A stretch of 23,112 bases of DNA from a virus. Under the pieces are notes generated by a model. It did no database searches and had not been told where the DNA came from. It saw only the letters and a program-made list of their open reading frames with translations. Made by a program: the position numbers and the translations under genes. This document shows positions 1,376 to 17,136 of this stretch, piece after piece. Position 1 is the first letter of the stretch. Each line of letters starts with the position of its first letter. Location: positions 1 to 23,112 of the IMG/VR virus record IMGVR_UViG_3300048778_000056; one strand, written 5' to 3'.

Positions 1376-2455
1376 TTATTTCCTCAATAGATTTATTAAT
1401 TCCGTCAATTTCAACTTCAGTTCATCATCTGCAGCCTTTCCAGGCGCAGCAGCAGCCGGTGCAGCAGCACCAGTTGTTGGTTTTTCGCCAGGCTCGTTGT
1501 AGTCTGTGCCTGTCACTTGTGTTAATACGCCTTCGATTAAATCACCAGCTTGATCAAGCAAATCGTTTGCTTTTGCCAAGTCTGCTTCATTTTTAGTTGA
1601 AAGCACCCTACCGGCTTTTGTTTCCATAGTATTACCATCAGCCTTTCCACCACCGGCCTTTGCATCTTCACGCTCTTTGATTCTGTCTGTGACTGCGCCG
1701 ATGTGCGCACATTTGAATTCAAATTGCATGCTGTCTGCCTTCCATTCCAGTGGCGATTTGTCAGCACAATCATTGCCGTTTGCTTTGTTGATTTTACACA
1801 TCGCAGCTTCAACAGCACTGTGCAGCCAATTCATATCAGATTGCGAAAAGCCAGTTAGCAGGTTGCCCTGCGCAGCCCATTGGTGCAATCGCCTGTGATA
1901 ACTTGTTAAGTCCTGCAGGTTTTCCTTATTGATGCCTGCCAGCAAATCAGTTTTGTCCTGCGCTGTGATTGTTTTGGTGCGCATCACGTCTTTCACATCA
2001 GTGTTGACAGCTTCAGTGTTGCTTGGAAACGTCACGTTGGAAATTTCCATCAGGCCAACATCCTGCAGATGGTTCACGCCTTCATCATCTTTGAAAGCCT
2101 TTCCATTATGCATAGTATAGCCAATACTGTTGCCGTCAATGTCACCATTCACTGCAGCTTCATATGCATCCTTTCCCCAAGAAGTTTTCAGATTGTATCG
2201 TGCCTGATATTTCAGACCATAATCATCTTCCCACAGTTTCACAATTCGCCCTATAGGGCGCTTATAATCGTGCTGCCATAGGAACTTTAATTTTTTAGGA
2301 TCAGCCAGTGCTTTCACAAACGCGCCACGATCAACAACTTCTTTCTGGCTGTCGACAACGCCATAAACTGAAGCATAACCTTCAACAAATCCTTTTTCAT
2401 CTGGAACTTCAAGTGGCAAAGAATTGTCTTTATATCTCATTTCTGAATCTGTCAT
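1376..2455 (-). CDS. Prohead protease (S78/U35-like) fused to a scaffold-like tail
   Basis: A 359-residue maturation protease. Residues about 1-160 show the HK97 prohead protease pattern: the GFVEGYASVYGVVDSQKEVV opening, a candidate catalytic His in LWQHDYKRPIGRI, a YGLKYQARYN beta strand and the nucleophile Ser in GNSIGYTMHN. Plain proteases are near 200 residues. The extra C-terminal 190 residues include METKAGRVLSTKNEADLAKA (charged, helical), an Ala/Pro/Gly-rich linker (AAAPAAAAPGKA) and a short helix ending LTELINLLRK. This layout fits a protease-scaffold fusion that guides capsid assembly and then digests itself. The start has a GGTGG core 10 bases upstream. A dedicated promoter with a palindrome lies just upstream at 2516-2550. 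Confidence 0.9.
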   Translation of the reverse strand: MTDSEMRYKDNSLPLEVPDEKGFVEGYASVYGVVDSQKEVVDRGAFVKALADPKKLKFLWQHDYKRPIGRIVKLWEDDYGLKYQARYNLKTSWGKDAYEAAVNGDIDGNSIGYTMHNGKAFKDDEGVNHLQDVGLMEISNVTFPSNTEAVNTDVKDVMRTKTITAQDKTDLLAGINKENLQDLTSYHRRLHQWAAQGNLLTGFSQSDMNWLHSAVEAAMCKINKANGNDCADKSPLEWKADSMQFEFKCAHIGAVTDRIKEREDAKAGGGKADGNTMETKAGRVLSTKNEADLAKANDLLDQAGDLIEGVLTQVTGTDYNEPGEKPTTGAAAPAAAAPGKAADDELKLKLTELINLLRK

Positions 2456-3033: not shown

Positions 3034-3567
3034 CTAGAATTGTAGGTGGTTCCAGCAACGACCGTGGCACAACTTCCAGATCGCAGGTGATTGCACGCCA
3101 TATTCTGCAGCAAGCCACGTTTGTTTCTCGCCAAAAAATTCGCGGACCTTTATAATAAATGCATCATTGTCTGAAAGTTTGGCGCGTTGATTTAGTTGAC
3201 CCCTCTGTTGTGGAAATTCTTTGTGGCCCCATCTTCCTTTGTTGCAACTGTCGATGGTGTTTTCTCTGGCGGTTCCCAAGAAAAGATGCGAAGGATTCAC
3301 GCACAACGGATTGTCACAAGAGTGCAGCGCATTCAATGAATCATCAATTTCTCCGTGCTCGAGCAGATATGCTATGCGTGATGCGTTTGGATATTCATGT
3401 TTCCCGTTGCGTGTTATCACGAAGTGACCATAACCTAATGTATTCTTTGCGCCGCGCCACAACCAGCAATCATCATCGGAGCGGTTCTCGAGATCAACTT
3501 TGGACCAGAACCTATTATGCAATCGGTGTTGCCATCCGTAAATATCCTCTAAAATCATCATATCCAT
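3034..3567 (-). CDS. Free-standing HNH homing-type endonuclease
   Basis: Endonuclease of the HNH_3 type. Central motifs are DDDCWLWRGAKNTLGYGHF, then ALHSCDNPLCVNPSHLFLGT with ARENTIDS, which carry the His, paired Cys, Asn and second His of the metal-bound nuclease site. The C-terminal part (KLSDNDAFIIKVREFF then TWLAAEYGVQSPAIWKL) looks like a helix-turn-helix target-binding segment. I place the start at the ATG at 3567 (177 residues). The frame stays open to a TTG at 3630, but that would overlap the head gene by 46 bases and lacks a good signal. Such genes are usually selfish insertions between phage genes. No split gene or intron is visible around it. Confidence 0.82.
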   Translation of the reverse strand: MDMMILEDIYGWQHRLHNRFWSKVDLENRSDDDCWLWRGAKNTLGYGHFVITRNGKHEYPNASRIAYLLEHGEIDDSLNALHSCDNPLCVNPSHLFLGTARENTIDSCNKGRWGHKEFPQQRGQLNQRAKLSDNDAFIIKVREFFGEKQTWLAAEYGVQSPAIWKLCHGRCWNHLQF

Positions 3568-3584
3568 ATAGGTGGATATGCTAT

Positions 3585-4328
3585 TTATTTGTTGTCTCTT
3601 TTCTCCGGTGCTGCAAATCCTAGACAGCAACGACAGTTAATGGCCATTCCGGGCATTGTAGTGCCATCTTCACAATCAAATTCCGATCCTGCAGGAACGG
3701 TTTCGCCATCCATAGCGGCATGGGCCGGTCTGGTTCTATCATCGTCGGTAGCGCACCAAAGTAGATCTAAGGTGCTTCCTGCGTCTTTGCTTTGTTGTAA
3801 GGTAGCGGTATTATACGCCGAAACTGTCTCGCTTCTAGCTATCCTAGTCGCGCGCCAGGTTTCCATATCGTCACCAAAGCAGTCCTTCACGCGCGCCGTG
3901 GTTTTGTCCATCGTTTCACCTTCTTCAGCGCCACTGAAGATTGCATTCTTAATCATGTCTTTGGTTTCGCTGGCGAGCCCTTTTATTTTATCGCCAGTGT
4001 GGTCTGCCATATAGTGGGCCACGTAGGTCAGCCAGGCGTTGGCCTTCTGTTCGTGGCCACCAAAATTTTCTGTCGCAAAAGTGTATGCGCTGCTGCCTGC
4101 GCTTTCCCAAATGCGCCTGATCATTAAGCGCATCAGTGGATCGAAAGAATCAACTACGTTGTTGACTTCTTCAATTCCTTTTGGAACTGCTGCCATCACT
4201 GGCTGCTGCATCTGGTGGAATGCGTTCTGCACTATCTTTTCAGAAAAAGGAAAAAAACGATCGCGCCTTTTGGACAGCGCCCTGTAGTATCTCCGTTGCT
4301 GTTCCTTAACGCGCAGATCATATGCCAT
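3585..4328 (-). CDS. Phage head morphogenesis protein, Mu gpF-like
   Basis: A 247-residue minor head protein. The C-terminal third carries the family signature: TRIARSETVSAYNTATLQQ, then DDRTRPAHAAMDGETVPAGS and finally AINCRCCLGF, where the R-x-x-H...NCRC residues are characteristic. Proteins of this group sit near the portal and help build the prohead. Gene order portal, small zinc-ribbon protein, gpF-like, protease, capsid is normal apart from two inserted nucleases. The start is ATG 4328 with AAAGGGT upstream. Confidence 0.85.
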   Translation of the reverse strand: MAYDLRVKEQQRRYYRALSKRRDRFFPFSEKIVQNAFHQMQQPVMAAVPKGIEEVNNVVDSFDPLMRLMIRRIWESAGSSAYTFATENFGGHEQKANAWLTYVAHYMADHTGDKIKGLASETKDMIKNAIFSGAEEGETMDKTTARVKDCFGDDMETWRATRIARSETVSAYNTATLQQSKDAGSTLDLLWCATDDDRTRPAHAAMDGETVPAGSEFDCEDGTTMPGMAINCRCCLGFAAPEKRDNK

Positions 4329-6976: not shown

Positions 6977-7161
6977 TCGTTTATCCTAAATTTTTTGGCA
7001 CCGTTATGATTGCGCACTGTAACGGTGCGCCATTTGTTTAAGTCCTGCAGATTCTTTGCTGCCGTCCTGTAGTTTTGATTTGTTGCTGCCGCCACTTCTT
7101 TAATTGACAACTCCCCGCCACGCTGTGCGCGCAATACGCGTTCAACATCATCTTGTGCCAT
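6973..7161 (-). CDS. Small winged-helix DNA-binding protein
   Basis: A 62-residue protein whose whole length fits a helix-turn-helix or winged-helix domain: ERVLRAQRGGELSIKEVAAA, then a recognition-helix-like TNQNYRTAAKNLQDLNKW, then a wing-like VTVRNHNGAKKFRI. This is typical of small transcription regulators. It overlaps the HNH gene on one side by 14 bases and the Cys-rich gene on the other by four. A role in controlling viral promoters is an inference; the palindromes near candidate promoters in this window are possible targets. Confidence 0.65.
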   Translation of the reverse strand: MAQDDVERVLRAQRGGELSIKEVAAATNQNYRTAAKNLQDLNKWRTVTVRNHNGAKKFRINE

Positions 7162-7540
7162 TTCTTTTATATTCCAAATGTTTTTTCCAATTGCAATTGA
7201 AACACAAAACCTGATAGCCTTCTGGATAATTATTATTTTTTAGCCACTGGTAAAAATACCATCCAGGGTTTGCAAGTCTATGTGCATATCCGTCATTGTT
7301 TATGTGGTCAATTGCCAAAACGTCAACATCAGATTCGCCGCAATTATTACAACAAATGCTGTCGGAATATGATTCAAGTGCAGAAATTTTTAATTCAAAT
7401 CTTCTGTTGCGTTCTTTTTCTGCGCGTTCGTCTTTGTGTGCAGCATTCCATTTGTTGTTTCTGGCACGTATTTTATCTTGATTCATTAAGCGATATTGCT
7501 TATCATATTCCGCCTGCAGTTCTTTTGTTGGATACGCCAT
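7148..7540 (-). CDS. HNH endonuclease with zinc-finger core (paralog of 16732-17136)
   Basis: A 130-residue endonuclease. Core residues are the CxxC at 64-67 (CCNNCGESD), the catalytic-type AIDHINNDG (D78, H79), the YQWLKNNNYPEGYQVLCFNC block and the second CxxC at 113-116. The N-terminal 50 residues are basic and helical, likely for DNA contact. The core shares IDHIN, the Y-x-W-x3-N-x2-PEG block and VLC-x-NCN with the HNH protein at 16732-17136, so both derive from one mobile family. It sits three bases after the RecB-like gene and overlaps the winged-helix gene. Confidence 0.82.
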   Translation of the reverse strand: MAYPTKELQAEYDKQYRLMNQDKIRARNNKWNAAHKDERAEKERNRRFELKISALESYSDSICCNNCGESDVDVLAIDHINNDGYAHRLANPGWYFYQWLKNNNYPEGYQVLCFNCNWKKHLEYKRNGTR

Positions 7541-8270: not shown

Positions 8271-9644
8271 TTATTTACGAATACCGCCAAACCATTTAAT
8301 TCTAGTTCTGCCGCGTGCTGCCTGCAGCATTCCGATTGCGCCAGCAACTGCATCAAGTTGATCATCATGATTTCCGTCAGGGTAAAGCTCGGCCTCGTCT
8401 AACCAATCAGAAATCCACGCGCCACTGATAAGTTTAAGATTTCCTGCTTCCGCGTGGCTGCTGACAATGGCGATTCGTGATTGTTTGGGACCGGTTGGCC
8501 TGTATGCTTTCAGGTTGCGATCCTGCAGCACGTTGCGCCTGTAGTAGTCCAGCACCTGGATGCCGGAAGCGCCAGGTTCCTGTTCCATCACAATCGCTGT
8601 GCCTGGTCCGTCTGCGTCTGCTGTTCGTCGTATCAGTGATTCGACATCGTGCGCAGTGGACTGCGTTTTAACTATATTAACCAGGTAGTAAACACCGTCC
8701 TTAATTGCAACCAACGCGCCGGCAGTCCAATCAGGATCACGCCCTGATGCAGACTTTGGCGTTGCTGCGATGTCCCAAAATCTCACACGTGTGCTGCCTG
8801 CCGGAAGTGCTGGCATAGTTTCAAACCACTGGCGCAGGAAGAAGCCACCAGTTGCCACCTGATCCCAATTGCCATCAAGCAACTGTGCGCGTGTGACAGG
8901 ATCAAGATTTTGCAGGCTCTTTTCATATTCAACACTGTCCAGATATGGATTGTCACGCGCCCACGCGCGAATTACTGTGCGCCCTTTGGTTTCGCCTTCA
9001 ACCAGGAAGCGCTGTTTAACCCAATTGTGTCCCCTGCCGCCAGGATTGCTGGTGGACCAGATACGCAGTGGAATGGGATCATCTTTGGTTGTCCGGTTTC
9101 TGCTGAATAGGTATAGATAATGTGGTTCGATAAACTGTGTCAATTCATCAAAGCCAACAAACTGCCACTGCGCACCCTGGTATTGGTCCAGGTCTTTCTG
9201 TGTTGCTAAATATCCAAAGGTTATTGTTGCACCAGAAGGGAATGTCCATTGCTTTTCAACAGCATCCCAATGTGCTGTTTCGCCATTCACGCTGATGCCA
9301 TCAAGCCATTGGTGGCTAACATCCATCAGTGCGCCAGGTAGTGCCAGATCCTTATAGGTTCTGCGCAGTATTAACGCGTTGTATTGTGGCTCGGTCACGT
9401 ATTGCAGGGCAGCCATCATCAATGACCAGGATTTGCCTGGTCCTGCTGCACCACCAAATAAGCATTCACGCGTGGAACAGCGCAGGAAACGTGCCTGTTT
9501 GCCATATGGATCTAGCCAATCATCATTCGGCAGTTTGATGCTAGAGATCCAGGGATTCAGATAGACTGTTTCCAACAGTCGCAAATCATCTTCTGTTGGA
9601 TTTACATCCTGAACTTTCTGCAGTGTTGTTTTGTCTGTGATCAT
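8271..9644 (-). CDS. terL: Large terminase subunit (ATPase and nuclease)
   Basis: Motor that pumps DNA into the prohead. Counting from the ATG at 9644 (457 residues): Walker A GGAAGPGKS at 64-72, Walker B FVGFDE at 162-167, coupling motif STSNPGG at 197-203. The RNase H-like nuclease carries D291 (FWDIAA), D305, E354 (VMEQEP) and the NHDDQLDA block at 425-432. All key residues of ATPase and nuclease are present, so it should be active. The frame is open to a TTG at 9662, but the ATG forms an ATGA overlap with a short leader frame that has a better ribosome site. The gene follows the regulatory stretch at 9677-9932. Confidence 0.95.
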   Translation of the reverse strand: MITDKTTLQKVQDVNPTEDDLRLLETVYLNPWISSIKLPNDDWLDPYGKQARFLRCSTRECLFGGAAGPGKSWSLMMAALQYVTEPQYNALILRRTYKDLALPGALMDVSHQWLDGISVNGETAHWDAVEKQWTFPSGATITFGYLATQKDLDQYQGAQWQFVGFDELTQFIEPHYLYLFSRNRTTKDDPIPLRIWSTSNPGGRGHNWVKQRFLVEGETKGRTVIRAWARDNPYLDSVEYEKSLQNLDPVTRAQLLDGNWDQVATGGFFLRQWFETMPALPAGSTRVRFWDIAATPKSASGRDPDWTAGALVAIKDGVYYLVNIVKTQSTAHDVESLIRRTADADGPGTAIVMEQEPGASGIQVLDYYRRNVLQDRNLKAYRPTGPKQSRIAIVSSHAEAGNLKLISGAWISDWLDEAELYPDGNHDDQLDAVAGAIGMLQAARGRTRIKWFGGIRK

Positions 9645-9676
9645 CTTAATATCAACAACCAATTGATTGTGTCCAT
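9641..9676 (-). CDS. Possible 11-residue leader peptide coupled to terL
   Basis: A short frame, MDTINWLLILR, starts at ATG 9676 behind AGGTAGAT, a better ribosome site than anything just before terL. Its TGA overlaps the terL ATG in an ATGA. Such an arrangement would couple terL translation to the leader. It is short enough to arise by chance, so this is tentative. Confidence 0.35.
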   Translation of the reverse strand: MDTINWLLILR

Positions 9677-9771: not shown

Positions 9772-9936
9772 TTAATCATTAGCAAAATTGAACAAAATAT
9801 ATCTTTTGTTTAATGACAAACGCCAAATTGGAAATGGATTGCAAAGAAGATACAAAAGATATGTTTTGTATCGTTTTGTTTCGCATTTTGCCTTCCGTTG
9901 GTTGCCTGTTAGTATATCCACAACAACCTGCATCAT
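9772..9936 (-). CDS. Doubtful 54-residue frame after terS
   Basis: A frame beginning at ATG 9936, overlapping the terS stop as ATGA, runs for 54 residues (start MMQVVVDILTGNQRKAKC). The overlap is typical for this genome, but most of the frame lies over the two palindromes and has very AT-rich codons giving Lys, Tyr, Leu and Phe, unlike its neighbours. I lean toward non-coding regulatory DNA. Confidence 0.22.
   Translation of the reverse strand: MMQVVVDILTGNQRKAKCETKRYKTYLLYLLCNPFPIWRLSLNKRYILFNFAND
9791..9810. repeat. Inverted repeat AACAAAA-N6-TTTTGTT
   Basis: Arms of 7 bases with a 6-base AT centre. It shares the ACAAAA-N6-TTTTGT core with the larger palindrome 60 bases away, suggesting two binding sites for one protein on the same face-related spacing. 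Confidence 0.55.
9849..9872. repeat. Inverted repeat GATACAAAA-N6-TTTTGTATC
   Basis: Perfect 9-base arms around a 6-base centre, downstream of the small terminase stop. Palindromes of this size usually bind dimeric helix-turn-helix proteins. One arm (TTTTGTATC) recurs at 9705-9713. Confidence 0.6.
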
Positions 9937-10376
9937 TCTTTGGAAACATCTATGACTTGTTGTTTCCATTTGTCTATACGTTCATTGATTGGTTGTGTGT
10001 CTATACTGCCACTGTGTTTGATTTCCTGCGTGCTGTGCGTTCCGTATTCATCCTTCCACCTGTGTTCTGCCAACCATTCCATTGCCTTTCTGTCACCTTC
10101 TGTTGCCTTCTTCTTTATGCCAGACAGAACATTGCGTTGAAGTTGCGCCTCGGCGTTAAGTATTTGTTCGCGAAACTTATGATACTTTGCATTATAATCT
10201 GGATCATCAGGACCAGGTTCGCCTTCTTTCATCCAACGGTTGAACGTGCCATAAGATACACCACACGCATCACACGCCTTATTATAATACATCGCATCAC
10301 TAATACAACCAATAAGATTCTTGGTTAATGCACGCGTCAGTTTGCTTGGCCTTCCACCCTGCCTTCCTTTAACCAT
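9933..10376 (-). CDS. terS: Small terminase subunit
   Basis: A 147-residue DNA-recognition subunit of the packaging motor. The N-terminal half is basic and holds a helix-turn-helix (SDAMYYNKACDACGVSYGTF, then NRWMKEG), followed by YHKFREQILNAEAQLQRNVL and a KATEGDRKAMEWLAEHRWKD helix, both typical of phage terminase small subunits. It directly precedes the regulatory stretch and terL. The ATG follows the upstream stop with no gap (TGAATG). The family assignment is good; the exact DNA target is unknown, but the nearby palindromes are candidates. Confidence 0.85.
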   Translation of the reverse strand: MVKGRQGGRPSKLTRALTKNLIGCISDAMYYNKACDACGVSYGTFNRWMKEGEPGPDDPDYNAKYHKFREQILNAEAQLQRNVLSGIKKKATEGDRKAMEWLAEHRWKDEYGTHSTQEIKHSGSIDTQPINERIDKWKQQVIDVSKE

Positions 10377-10661
10377 TCAATCACATCCTGCAAAGTCTGC
10401 ATCATAACACGTCAATGATGGATCATCACTGGACACATCACGCGGCCAGGTATGTGCCACCATTATCTTCTTTATGCGTTGCACTGTATGCATCATCATT
10501 GCTGAATATGGATGTGCCGCATCAATGTGGCATTCATAGAATGGATATAACAACCGCCCTTCATATGGCTTCAACAGTTCATATGATGGTTCAATATCAG
10601 GCGTTGCATCCCTATCATAAACCACACGATAGAGTTCATCTGCTGCAAAATGTGCAGGCAT
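10377..10661 (-). CDS. Hypothetical protein upstream of terS
   Basis: A 94-residue acidic protein, not recognised. It has PSYELLKPYEGRLLYPFYEC, then HIDAAHPYSAMMMHTVQRIK and a C-terminus rich in Asp, Cys and Thr (SLTCYDADFAGCD). It lies tightly between the papain-like protease (2-base gap) and terS (0-base gap), so it should be translated with them. A role in packaging or as a structural accessory cannot be shown. Confidence 0.7.
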   Translation of the reverse strand: MPAHFAADELYRVVYDRDATPDIEPSYELLKPYEGRLLYPFYECHIDAAHPYSAMMMHTVQRIKKIMVAHTWPRDVSSDDPSLTCYDADFAGCD

Positions 10662-10663
10662 TG

Positions 10664-11503
10664 TTAGACGTTCACCACACTGATCACTGATGCAGGCGTG
10701 ACACCTGTTGGCGTTGGTCCTATTTCTGATTCAGCAATTATGGTCCAGAAGTCAGACGCGATTGCGTTTGTAATATACGCGTTTGGAAGTCTGCCAAATC
10801 CTTCATACCCCCAACTTGTATTCCAACTATTCACAAGCCACAGATTGCTTGCATCATAGCCACAGAACAGCATACAATGCCCACCTGCAACCGGATCACT
10901 GCCACTTGGATATGGAATAATTGGCAATGCATTTGCACTTCCACCAGCAACATTAAAGATGCTGTCATAAACAGTGGTTCCAAACGTCACACAAAAGCCA
11001 GATGCCAATGCAGTCTTTATGTTAAGAAGGGATTGCGCACTTCCTGCAGTTGAATCAAGTGCATAATAGTTTGTGCTTTTATTCTTAACTGCGTCAGTTG
11101 CACAGGAAGCAGGCGGCGTTGCATCAATGTTCGTGTCAAATGGCCACAATGATTCGTGGCAAATGCCATATTGATCAGTTGCCTTCACACCTGCACGCAC
11201 GTCTGCGCCATTATCACCTGGAAATGTGCCTGATAATATTCGCGCATTTCTATATTCATATTTAATATTGCCAGGAAAATACTTTCCAGTAAGACGCACC
11301 TGGCACGATTCAAACAACTTGGTCACGCCTTCAGAAACACAACAACCAATGCCATCCTGGTCATTTACGCTTAAAATTTGGCTTCGTAAATCAACAGTTG
11401 TTGGAAGTTTCTGCACCATCCTGTGCCTAATATCATCAAACTTATAATCCCTGTGATCTGGTTGCTGCCTGAGCCATCCGCCCTTAAATTGTTCTTTATC
11501 CAT
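10664..11503 (-). CDS. Papain-like cysteine protease (peptidase family C1A)
   Basis: A 279-residue peptidase with the full papain set: Gln49 of the oxyanion hole and Cys55 nucleophile in NDQDGIGCCVSEG, His209 in VAGGHCMLFCGYD, and Asn225 in WLVNSWNTSWGYEGFGRLP. The opening WLRQQPDHRDYKFDD and TTVDLRSQ match C1 enzymes of the archaeal and bacterial 'DRD' type, with little propeptide. No signal peptide is visible, so it would act in the cytoplasm or be released by lysis. In this operon, beside a glycosidase-like protein, it may attack cell-envelope protein or mature virion proteins. The start has GGGTGA, contributed by the histone-fold gene end. Confidence 0.88.
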   Translation of the reverse strand: MDKEQFKGGWLRQQPDHRDYKFDDIRHRMVQKLPTTVDLRSQILSVNDQDGIGCCVSEGVTKLFESCQVRLTGKYFPGNIKYEYRNARILSGTFPGDNGADVRAGVKATDQYGICHESLWPFDTNIDATPPASCATDAVKNKSTNYYALDSTAGSAQSLLNIKTALASGFCVTFGTTVYDSIFNVAGGSANALPIIPYPSGSDPVAGGHCMLFCGYDASNLWLVNSWNTSWGYEGFGRLPNAYITNAIASDFWTIIAESEIGPTPTGVTPASVISVVNV

Positions 11504-11506
11504 TTT

Positions 11507-11692
11507 CTATTCACCCATATCGCGCACTTCAATTCTAGTGCGCCCTTCTGCCTGCATTCTAGTAACTGCTTTTGCAGATGCCTGTTTCATAAACGCTGTC
11601 ATCCACGTTTCAAAGTCAACAAGTGCAGCATCTGAAACTTGTGTTGCGCCTGCTGAAATTAATTCGTGTCTTAATTGGTTTTTGCTTATCAT
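11507..11692 (-). CDS. Virus-encoded histone-fold protein with shortened third helix
   Basis: A 61-residue protein that aligns without gaps to the archaeal histone core. HMfB has AGAERVSDDA, then 26 residues, then GRKTIKAEDI; this protein has AGATQVSDAA, the same spacing, then GRTRIEVRDM. The central FETWMTAFMKQASAKAVTRM fits the long helix 2. It stops two residues after RDM, so most of helix 3 is absent; histone-fold proteins with a cut-back helix 3 are known in prokaryotes. It should dimerise and bind DNA, perhaps organising viral DNA before packaging or altering host chromatin. ATG lies one base after the upstream stop, suggesting coupling. Homology is strong by eye; the role is inferred. 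Confidence 0.82.
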   Translation of the reverse strand: MISKNQLRHELISAGATQVSDAALVDFETWMTAFMKQASAKAVTRMQAEGRTRIEVRDMGE

Positions 11693-11693
11693 T

Positions 11694-11954
11694 TTAAATC
11701 AATCCCTTTGGTTCATCAATAAATCCAATACAATCTTCCTGGCGCGTTTTCTCATTAATCACACAGTTGTCATACACGCGCACATAGATTTTGCCATCAC
11801 CATCTGTTCTTGGAAAAACACGAAAAAACAATGACGTGCATTTGAAGCATTTTTTAAACACTTGTTCCAATCCATCATCATCATCAAATTTGACATTAAA
11901 CACGATGCTTTTATTTGCTTCGTGTTCGTGTGTTGTTGCTCTTTGAACAATCAT
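11694..11954 (-). CDS. Hypothetical beta-rich acidic protein
   Basis: An 86-residue protein from ATG 11954 with AAAGGAA upstream; the frame extends to TTG 11993 but that start lacks a ribosome site. It has an acidic run (KFDDDDGLEQVF), CFKC, and a strand-rich SLFFRVFPRTDGDGKIYVRV. No family is recognised. It overlaps the zinc protein upstream by 44 bases, the largest overlap in this operon, and its stop lies one base before the histone-fold ATG. Confidence 0.62.
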   Translation of the reverse strand: MIVQRATTHEHEANKSIVFNVKFDDDDGLEQVFKKCFKCTSLFFRVFPRTDGDGKIYVRVYDNCVINEKTRQEDCIGFIDEPKGLI

Positions 11955-12114
11955 TGCAGAATTTCCTTTTACGTGTGCCTGCCAGTTTGACAATTGAATT
12001 TCCTACCCGTTTGCGCCAGACAATTTCAAATTCCGAGCCACACTTTTCACACGTCAGTATGTCTGCCTGTTCGTATCGTGGCCTGTCAATTATCGATCGT
12101 GGCGCGGTCATCAT
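11911..12114 (-). CDS. Small basic zinc-ribbon protein
   Basis: A 67-residue protein with CEKCGSEFEI (CxxC) and KFCNDCSKSN (CxxC) separated by a basic segment (WRKRVGNSIVKLAGTRKRK), and a basic tail. It fits a zinc ribbon that binds nucleic acid. The start is joined to the upstream stop by TGATG. Confidence 0.68.
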   Translation of the reverse strand: MMTAPRSIIDRPRYEQADILTCEKCGSEFEIVWRKRVGNSIVKLAGTRKRKFCNDCSKSNNTRTRSK

Positions 12115-12493: not shown

Positions 12494-13735
12494 TCACGCT
12501 AGTTTTGCTATATACGACTTCCAACCAGACCAGGCGGTTCCACCCCAAGTGTTGGTGTATTCAGAACCATTGGTTCCTAGAACATACACAACCAGATTAT
12601 TCATTGCATATGCCACCGCTTCCAGGCTAGAACCTTTAGGTGTCAACCCACCCAGGTTTTTCCAATCTGCCGACCACACACCGGCTGCAGTCATCGCTTT
12701 TTCAAACACAGACGTGGTGGTTCCTATCACATACACACGAAGGCTGCCATCTGGAAGCGCGACTGCCTTTGGCGCAGCAATGCACTTTCCACCCAAAGAT
12801 GTGAATGCAGATGCCTTTCCGGTTGTGTCTATCGTTCTATACCAACATGCCTGATCCGATCCCGTTATAAATTCATATCTCATTTTGTTCACCAACGTTA
12901 TTTCAGAAATACAACTTGCAGGCGTTATTGTTGACACAGGTGCTGGTCCTGTTCCACGTGGTGGATATTTTGCCTGCATAGCCGCAACAATGCCTTCAAA
13001 ACCCAGCGCCTTATATTGGCTCAACATATTATCATTAATGCCTGCCCAAATAGCAAAATGATCCAGGCCACCATTTGCAGCCATCCAATCTGCCATCGCC
13101 ATATAGGTCAGGCCAGTTCCTGCCTGGCTGTTGGATAAAATAGGATTGCCATATGTCCAGCAGCCTGCTAATATTCCATTCTTCTTTCCCGCGCGGCAGC
13201 CCTGTTGGATATACTGCCATTCGCTGTCGTAATAACTTTCCCAGGAATTCCACACAGTGAATGGATGGCTGTAAAAGTCTTTCCAAAGGCCACACTGGTC
13301 ACAGTTATAATTCATATAACCTTTGAAATACTGCTTTAAAATATCCAGGTCGCCTGATCTGCCGCCTTCACTGCTGACGTATTCCACGCCAGCATTCTTC
13401 AGCATCTGGAAGTAGCCAGCAAAGTTGGACAGTGGTGCTGTTACCTGACCACCTGCCCATATCACCTGCTCAATGTCAACAACCACAGCAAAGCCTGCCG
13501 CCTTCAGTGCGTTAATAGCTGCTGCTGGATTGCTCTGGTCTGAAACCACAAGTTGCGCGGTGTCAAAATGGTGCGCCTTAAAATAGTTCACCGTGTTGCC
13601 GTCAAAAACAGCATTCGGCGTTATTGAGAATTGGTAACTTATTTGCACGTTAATCATCTGTCTTTTTTCTATATATAAACTTCTGTTATTTTGATATGCT
13701 TTTCGTGCTTCTTTATGCCTCTGGTAATATGTCAC
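12494..13735 (-). CDS. Glycosidase-like (DUF1906-type) domain joined to a beta-propeller lectin-like domain
   Basis: A 413-residue protein. Residues about 28-265 fit a TIM-barrel glycoside-hydrolase-like domain of the Rv2525c/DUF1906 kind, with acidic candidates in FAVVVDIEQVIW (D87, E89) and YVSSEGGRSGD (E123). After a Pro/Thr linker, residues about 285-413 contain repeats like CWYRTIDTTGKASAFTSLGG and TAWSGWKSYI, the PLL-like beta-propeller pattern that binds sugars. It may cleave or bind envelope glycans as an endolysin or depolymerase. No signal peptide is seen. GTG 13735 has a strong GGAAGGTG site and a TATA box 38 bases upstream. ATG 13657 is an alternative start, because residues 1-26 (YYQRHKEARKAYQNN) look like a stray piece of an HNH N-terminus. 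Confidence 0.75.
   Translation of the reverse strand: MTYYQRHKEARKAYQNNRSLYIEKRQMINVQISYQFSITPNAVFDGNTVNYFKAHHFDTAQLVVSDQSNPAAAINALKAAGFAVVVDIEQVIWAGGQVTAPLSNFAGYFQMLKNAGVEYVSSEGGRSGDLDILKQYFKGYMNYNCDQCGLWKDFYSHPFTVWNSWESYYDSEWQYIQQGCRAGKKNGILAGCWTYGNPILSNSQAGTGLTYMAMADWMAANGGLDHFAIWAGINDNMLSQYKALGFEGIVAAMQAKYPPRGTGPAPVSTITPASCISEITLVNKMRYEFITGSDQACWYRTIDTTGKASAFTSLGGKCIAAPKAVALPDGSLRVYVIGTTTSVFEKAMTAAGVWSADWKNLGGLTPKGSSLEAVAYAMNNLVVYVLGTNGSEYTNTWGGTAWSGWKSYIAKLA
13668..13682. repeat. Second copy of TATA-containing 15-mer inside the glycosidase-like gene
   Basis: TTCTATATATAAACT is identical to 13771-13785, 103 bases away. It lies only 10 bases before the internal ATG, too close for a normal leadered transcript from that ATG. 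It may be a remnant of a duplicated promoter or a site bound by the same factor. Confidence 0.5.
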
Positions 13736-16263: not shown

Positions 16264-16301
16264 AGAAAGAAAAAAGAAAAAGGTTGCGTTTATGCAACCT
16301 T
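16264..16301 (-). terminator. Hairpin plus T-tract terminator or attenuator before the primase gene
   Basis: On the minus strand AAGGTTGC-ATAAAC-GCAACCTT forms an 8-bp stem (16301-16280), followed by TTTTCTTTTTTCTTTC. It looks like a bacterial-type intrinsic terminator and has the T runs used by archaea. The stop codon of the upstream membrane gene is in the loop, and the primase ATG lies only about five bases past the T-tract. Confidence 0.65.
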
Positions 16302-16571
16302 AATTCTTAACAGCACTTCGGGCGCGTTGTAGTGTGCATAAACAGCATACACAATTGGAATTACAAACGAAATCCCAAATGTGAACACTGCCAGGATTAG
16401 TGCCACAACGATTGACACAATCCAACCTGCTGCAGATCCCCAAGATTTCTTTTTCAGCAACACAGTGCTGCTGCCTTCTTCTTTCACAGTGAATCCCTGC
16501 GTCATGAAGTCGTCAACCACACGATCCATTTCTGCCTTATCGGCAACTTCCCTTATTCGTGGACTTACCAT
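16290..16571 (-). CDS. Two-helix hydrophobic membrane protein
   Basis: A 93-residue protein. Residues 1-48 are soluble and resemble a small alpha-beta domain (MDRVVDDFMTQGFTVKEEGS followed by STVLLKKKSW). Residues 49-80 are strongly hydrophobic (GWIVSIVVALILAVFTFGIS then FVIPIVYAVYAHY), one long hairpin or two membrane helices. The start has the textbook AGTAGGTGAT site. Function unknown; similar small domain-plus-membrane proteins occur in archaea. Confidence 0.72.
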   Translation of the reverse strand: MVSPRIREVADKAEMDRVVDDFMTQGFTVKEEGSSTVLLKKKSWGSAAGWIVSIVVALILAVFTFGISFVIPIVYAVYAHYNAPEVLLRIKVA

Positions 16572-16731: not shown

Positions 16732-17136
16732 TCACTCCGTGTTGTGTGGGCAATAACCATAAAACCCATATGACAGATTGCAGTTGTGACACAAAACCCT
16801 AAAACCTTCTGGAAAATCATTTCTGATAATCCATAGATAGAATCCTGCGCCACATCCTACTTTCTGCCTGTGTTTATGCCCACCACCATTTATGTGGTCA
16901 ATACATAGAAATTCTGATGCAGTTTCGCCACAGCATTCACATTTTGGATTGCCATTTGAATAATGCAATAGAACTTCTTTTCTTTTCTTCTGCGTGTATT
17001 CCTTTACATATGCAGCACGTTTTTCTATGCGTTCAGGAAATAATCCATATTTGCGTTTTGGTGCGCAGTCCGCGCAATATCGCTGTCTGCCATATGCTTC
17101 AATTTCCGTTCCACAAAACGTGCAGTTTTTCTTCAT
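16732..17136 (-). CDS. HNH endonuclease with extra N-terminal zinc ribbon
   Basis: A 134-residue enzyme. N-terminal zinc ribbon CTFCGTE...RYCADC (C5, C8, C21, C24), basic linker, then the HNH core: CECCGETASEFLCIDHINGG (C66, C69, D80, H81) and FPEGFRVLCHNCN (C116, C119). The core is closely similar to the protein at 7148-7540, which lacks the N-terminal ribbon. The ATG overlaps the stop of the ssDNA-binding candidate as ATGA. A selfish homing role is likely; participation in packaging or DNA nicking is an alternative. Confidence 0.83.
   Translation of the reverse strand: MKKNCTFCGTEIEAYGRQRYCADCAPKRKYGLFPERIEKRAAYVKEYTQKKRKEVLLHYSNGNPKCECCGETASEFLCIDHINGGGHKHRQKVGCGAGFYLWIIRNDFPEGFRVLCHNCNLSYGFYGYCPHNTE

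Follow-up and report, generated by a model that had tools for sequence, protein, structure and literature searches.

A 61-residue protein of probable archaeal tailed viruses resembles an archaeal histone without helix 3

A 23,112-nt stretch of viral DNA (IMG/VR record IMGVR_UViG_3300048778_000056, positions 1 to 23,112; here called the window) encodes a 61-residue protein that almost certainly has a histone fold. Judged by its sequence, it is genuinely related to the archaeal histones, though stripped down, and is not a canonical (nucleosomal) histone. In our preferred reading, to which we assign a probability of about 0.5, it acts on the chromatin of the virus or the host as a non-polymerizing histone-fold dimer, still contacting DNA through L1L2 loops that have been remodeled. 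Virus-encoded histones as such were known already; the short form, without helix 3 or a C-terminal extension, appears to be new, judging from open-license PMC papers.

RESULTS

Gene, product, and family

The open reading frame (ORF) at 11507-11692 on the minus strand comprises 61 codons and a stop codon, and its product is MISKNQLRHELISAGATQVSDAALVDFETWMTAFMKQASAKAVTRMQAEGRTRIEVRDMGE. Its parts are as follows.

11507..11692, minus strand: gene of the histone-fold protein, 61 aa; stop codon at 11507-11509
11654..11683, minus strand: predicted helix 1, residues 4-13 (AlphaFold, DSSP)
11633..11653, minus strand: loop 1 (L1), residues 14-20, AGATQVS; Gly retained, sprocket Arg replaced by Gln
11549..11632, minus strand: predicted helix 2, residues 21-48; HMfB spacing; F27/W30/F34 make up an aromatic core, and K41/R45 lie on what was the bundle side
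11510..11548, minus strand: loop 2 (L2) and C terminus, residues 49-61; R51 and D58 at the clamp distance, R53 and the final Gly-Glu invariant, helix 3 lacking

The motif AGA-x2-VSD-x-A occupies residues 14-23 and is followed by 26 residues (24-49) and by GR-x2-I-x3-D (50-58). This spacing, first noted in the sequence-only reading, is exact and reproduces the HMfB register without gaps within 61 residues; the distance from the Ser to the clamp Arg is 31 in both HMfB and the window protein.

Scans of IMG/VR found the protein on about seven further contigs representing at least four virus types (the contigs beyond the window are L002 to L007, L021, and L022), and L002 and L003 may be one virus. 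Identity to the window protein is 98-100% for L002, L003, and L004, 74% for L005, 75% for L006, 69% for L007, and 62% for L021 and L022, which are identical to each other over the stretch fetched. All members have 61 residues, start with MISK, and finish with D-x-G-E-stop, and R51, R53, D58, G15, K41, and R45 are invariant among them. The start codon is, on sequence grounds, called correctly, since a strong SD precedes MISK in L007 and L021, and a frameshift or assembly artifact behind the missing helix 3 was ruled out by the same stop codon in all members.

In a pN/pS comparison, dN and dS were 0.22 and 0.77 between the window and L005 and 0.22 and 1.02 between the window and L006, the other pairs being saturated at synonymous sites; with pN well below pS, the gene is under purifying selection. 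The predicted histone-fold protein is also often the best conserved protein between virus types. Between the window and L007 it is 69% identical, compared with 21% for the portal, 24% for the capsid, 36% for the prohead protease, and 43% for the C1 peptidase, and between the window and L021 the values are 62% for the histone, 21% for the portal, and 27% for the C1 peptidase, whereas the prohead protease is 66% identical over a piece of 80 residues. With the patterns used, no cellular relative was found in 84,980 genomes, nor did a TerL-based scan of genome contigs find one. A search of INPHARED with the 61-residue protein gave no useful match, and neither did PHROGs (best match, phrog_28428, function unknown; E value, 0.016).

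Homology to archaeal histones

A pairwise comparison with HMfB does not prove homology, as the 12 identities in 61 positions were equaled by 382 of 20,000 shuffles (2%). Pfam, including PF00808 (CBFD_NFYB_HMF), gave no match up to an E value of 10, so that the curated cutoff was not reached. Both results would suit a non-histone protein, a helical hairpin resembling the motif by chance, but we regard this explanation as very improbable, because the profile, decoy, PDB-sequence, and fold comparisons agree on one ungapped register. The family profile, aligned by hhalign with six archaeal histones, gave P values of 1-1.7e-6 and probabilities of 90-91% over 52 ungapped columns, and it scored 33.6, whereas none of 300 column-shuffled versions exceeded 21.3. 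In a decoy control with 266 ORFs of these contigs, the single L006 sequence scored 26.8 and the top non-histone decoy 23.3. An HMM built from nine archaeal histones ranked all family members immediately below the true histones, with E values of 1.3e-4 for L006, 0.005 for the window protein, and 0.015-0.016 for L005 and L007, the next decoy being at 1.1. Searched against PDB sequences at E values up to 10, the family profile matched seven entries, and all seven are histone folds (HPhA, HMfA twice, and CENP-X four times), each with an individually nonsignificant E value of 0.19-0.58. The relation to known histones is thus significant at the family level. The sequence-only reading had set a missing match to PF00808-type families against the histone assignment; that null result did occur, and we nevertheless accept homology, since the more sensitive profile comparisons and the fold comparisons outweigh it.

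Predicted fold

The AlphaFold2 monomer model has a pLDDT of 82 and helices at residues 4-13 and 21-48, and its end is disordered; the pTM is low, 0.51-0.53, for this monomer of what would be an obligate dimer. The arrangement helix 1, L1, long helix 2, L2 is present, and the monomer prediction gives a histone fold with a full-length helix 2. Helix 3, described earlier as reduced, is missing in every member. In Foldseek searches with two models, the best 50 of 213 and the best 50 of 124 matches were histone-fold proteins or complexes containing them. The best listed match was the Asgard hypernucleosome histone HHoB (probabilities of 0.95 and 0.98), and HMfB and HPhA ranked third and fourth in the second search; the E values are individually nonsignificant, as expected for so tiny a protein. 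The model fits archaeal nucleosomal histones with TM scores of 0.70-0.75 and the bacterial HBb with 0.61-0.64.

Residues changed relative to nucleosomal histones

All family members were compared residue by residue with nine archaeal histones. Of the HMfB residues L46, H49, D59, and L62, which belong to its four-helix bundle, three (L46, H49, and L62) correspond to R45, A48, and E61 and are replaced in all members. Helix 3, about 10 residues long in nucleosomal histones, is absent, and the chain ends three residues past the clamp Asp (D58 to E61). Four of the usual DNA-contact positions are changed (R10, R19, K53, and T54): the L1 sprocket Arg, whose side chain goes into the minor groove, has given way to Gln (in L004 to His), and the RKT of L2 is R-[T/V/I]-R in every member, so that Arg invariably stands in place of the Thr. 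The L1 Gly (G15) is retained, and so is the Arg-Asp clamp, R51-D58, with its seven-residue spacing (as defined in PMC13260811). The helix 2 core (F27, W30, and F34) is bulkier than in host-type histones, and the net charge ranges from -0.4 to +1.5 across the family, compared with +2.6 for HMfB. Given the changed contact positions and the near-zero charge, the protein may bind DNA weakly or not at all.

These replacements tell against the earlier suggestion that the protein could wrap or condense the genome: the bundle surface on which hypernucleosomes depend is gone (L46, H49, and L62 to R, A, and E), R10, R19, K53, and T54 are changed, and the net charge is about 0. Genome wrapping by the 61-residue protein is unlikely, and chromatin modification is probably the better description.

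The same changes bear on a reading with no DNA role at all, in which the fold is reused as a protein-protein module of the CENP-X/TAF type, for instance on the terminase or the transcription machinery. The few PDB sequences matched by the profile include CENP-X members, the charge is near zero, and the usual DNA contacts are lost. Yet the clamp, the L1 Gly, and the new invariant L2 Arg are hard to explain without DNA contact, and the linkage to the terminase is not kept in the virus of L006, so we consider such a module improbable.

Gene neighborhood and host

The gene belongs to a tightly spaced minus-strand string, listed here from its upstream to its downstream end around the histone gene.

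11694..11993, minus strand: ORF of unknown function, 99 aa, upstream, 1 nt away
10664..11503, minus strand: papain-like C1 peptidase, 3 nt downstream (PF00112; E value, 7.8e-8)
10377..10661, minus strand: 94-aa ORF between the peptidase gene and terS
9933..10376, minus strand: terminase small subunit, terS (phrog_4102; E value, 7.4e-21)
8271..9662, minus strand: terminase large subunit, terL (closest to the methanogen viruses psiM100/psiM2, 43%)

Of the proposed operon with a protease and terS, the gaps of 1 and 3 nt bear out the close coupling, although the 94-aa ORF precedes terS. The name "packaging operon" describes the local late/packaging string but is too narrow for the family: in the types of the window, L007, and L021, the first conserved gene downstream is that of the C1 peptidase, whereas in the virus of L006 the histone gene lies about 9 kb from the peptidase and the terminase. 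As the position is not kept there, a packaging-specific role is less favored. The neighboring peptidase was also considered as the head-maturation protease and rejected, being a member of the C1 papain family; the prohead protease gene is, by homology, likely to be window 1376-2455, which has homologs in L014 (69% identity) and L015 (36%), and a protein scan of those two contigs gave one S78/HK97 prohead protease.

The TerL proteins of the window and of the virus of L006 are nearest to those of psiM100/psiM2 (43-45%), and archaeal-type family matches are present in related contigs, while capsid, portal, and primase are nearest to bacterial phages. tblastn of other genes against plasmids and phages did not fix the host, which, from the sequences, is likely archaeal.

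Several other genes of these contigs deserve mention. The papain-like peptidase (window 10664-11503) and a possible glycosidase-like protein (12494-13735) are kept in whole or in part in all four types, and our guess is a function in lysis or adhesion. When 12494-13735 is compared with L005:6067-7236, the last approximately 150 residues are nearly identical and the N-terminal part is clearly more diverged, which suggests a recent exchange of the C-terminal domain. Window 16290-16571 encodes a small membrane protein with no Pfam match, shared with L003 and L005 (82%) and with the virus of L006 (49%). One HNH endonuclease (PF13392) and two other HNH-like ORFs are found at 3034-3630, 7148-7540, and 16732-17136, and the two HNH-like ORFs both match one place in L002/L003, like paralogous mobile genes. 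The 55-kb virus of L007 carries an MT-A70 methylase-like gene (L007:4726-5733).

DISCUSSION

Relation to known histones

The viral protein shares with the archaeal nucleosomal histones (HMfA/HMfB, HPhA, and HHoB) the 52-column ungapped register, the length of helix 2, the L1 Gly, the RV-type Val, and the L2 Arg-Asp clamp. It differs from them in having no helix 3, in the R/A/E at the bundle positions L46/H49/L62, in the L1 Gln (His in L004), in R[TVI]R for RKT, and in its near-neutral charge. With the α3-truncated histones (FtF, the bacterial dimers HBb/Bd0055, and the haloarchaeal acidic miniatures) it has in common the size of about 55-61 residues, a rudimentary helix 3 (3-4 residues), the retained clamp, and an Arg at the spacing of FtF R41. 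In those proteins, however, helix 2 is shorter by 4-5 residues (PMC11390915), whereas the viral helix 2 is full-length, the motif Thr and the FtF Asn are absent, and the fit to HBb is worse.

It is from this group that a face-to-face arrangement could be borrowed, in which dimers close into a torus-shaped tetramer that binds about 50-60 bp, and R45 of one dimer bonds to the C-terminal carboxylate of the other. R45 stands six residues ahead of the clamp Arg, the spacing of R41/R47 in FtF, and the invariant total length and Gly-Glu terminus hint at the C terminus as a partner of R45. But helix 2 lacks the shortening of the α3 histones, the FtF Asn is replaced (E49/D/A), the motif Thr is Arg, and HBb (TM score, 0.61-0.64) fits less well than the nucleosomal histones; we therefore think this assembly doubtful.

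The "phage histones" of Schwab et al. 2024 (PMC11390915) likewise combine a histone fold and a truncated helix 3 with tailed prokaryotic viruses, but they carry an extra C-terminal tetramerization helix and have no RxTxxxxD motif, whereas the viral 61-residue protein has no C-terminal extension and retains the Arg and Asp of the motif. Histones are also encoded by giant viruses and bracoviruses (PMC11222145, PMC9145170) and carried by Borgs (PMC12660748), so that the histone fold on a virus or virus-like element is shared; those of Nucleocytoviricota, however, are eukaryotic-type or full-length nucleosome formers (giant viruses), and Borgs are huge archaeal elements rather than tailed viruses. 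Among open-license PMC papers, we found no description of so short a viral histone. Separately, two large IMG/VR contigs, L019 (152 kb) and L020 (85 kb), carry genes for canonical archaeal histones of full length at a shared syntenic place (L019:4992-5198 and L020:5001-5198, both plus strand), adjoining opposite-strand coiled-coil and very long fibre-like genes; these are possibly large archaeal viruses with real nucleosomal histones.

A non-polymerizing dimer

From homology, predicted monomer fold, conservation, and residue exchanges, all computed here, we infer dimerization, DNA contact, late expression, and an effect on chromatin. The protein would be a histone-fold subunit reduced to a minimum, with its origin in the archaeal histone family. 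With helix 1, L1, the full helix 2, and the clamp-held L2 all kept, it most likely dimerizes by a handshake, judging from the fold, and the paired L1 and L2 loops would form the surface that contacts DNA. With helix 3 and the hydrophobic and His residues of the bundle lost, dimers should not stack into hypernucleosomes, and the fact that no member retains the bundle face argues for selection against HMfB-like polymerization. The minor-groove pair is remodeled (Gln for the L1 Arg, Arg for the L2 Thr), so DNA is probably still touched, with altered geometry; that the clamp is kept and an invariant L2 Arg gained argues that DNA contact remains. Made from the late/packaging string, the protein would thus serve as a small DNA-bending or DNA-coating protein that forms no polymers, and viral DNA could be held in a state other than host-type chromatin without being wrapped.

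The partner in the handshake could instead be a host histone. The protein would then act as a capstone or dominant negative that terminates or loosens the hypernucleosomes of the host, whether these lie on its own or on viral DNA, and the retained L2 clamp and handshake-side positions of helix 2, together with the replacement of the bundle residues in every member, are consistent with such a function. That it is often the best conserved protein among otherwise divergent viruses would be expected if it had to fit a slowly changing host partner. The bulkier core of F27, W30, and F34, on the other hand, may favor homodimers, and we rank the capstone second to our preferred reading, as conceivable but unlikely. 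In its most specific form, which we offer as speculation of rather low probability, the protein would be an anti-chromatin factor of divergent archaeal tailed viruses, a terminator within host histone assemblies that is mutated at the polymerization interface and at the minor-groove Arg/Thr; if so, viral DNA would be transcribed and packaged free of hypernucleosomes.

Surveys based on PF00808 miss such short histone-fold proteins. Histone-like proteins in archaeal tailed virions have been the subject of speculation in the HFTV1 cryo-EM study (PMC12494034). The present protein, 61 residues long, found in several virus types, and with its fiber-forming surface removed and its DNA loops remodeled, offers a directly testable case that bears on the way in which viruses deal with the chromatin of archaeal hosts that have histones.
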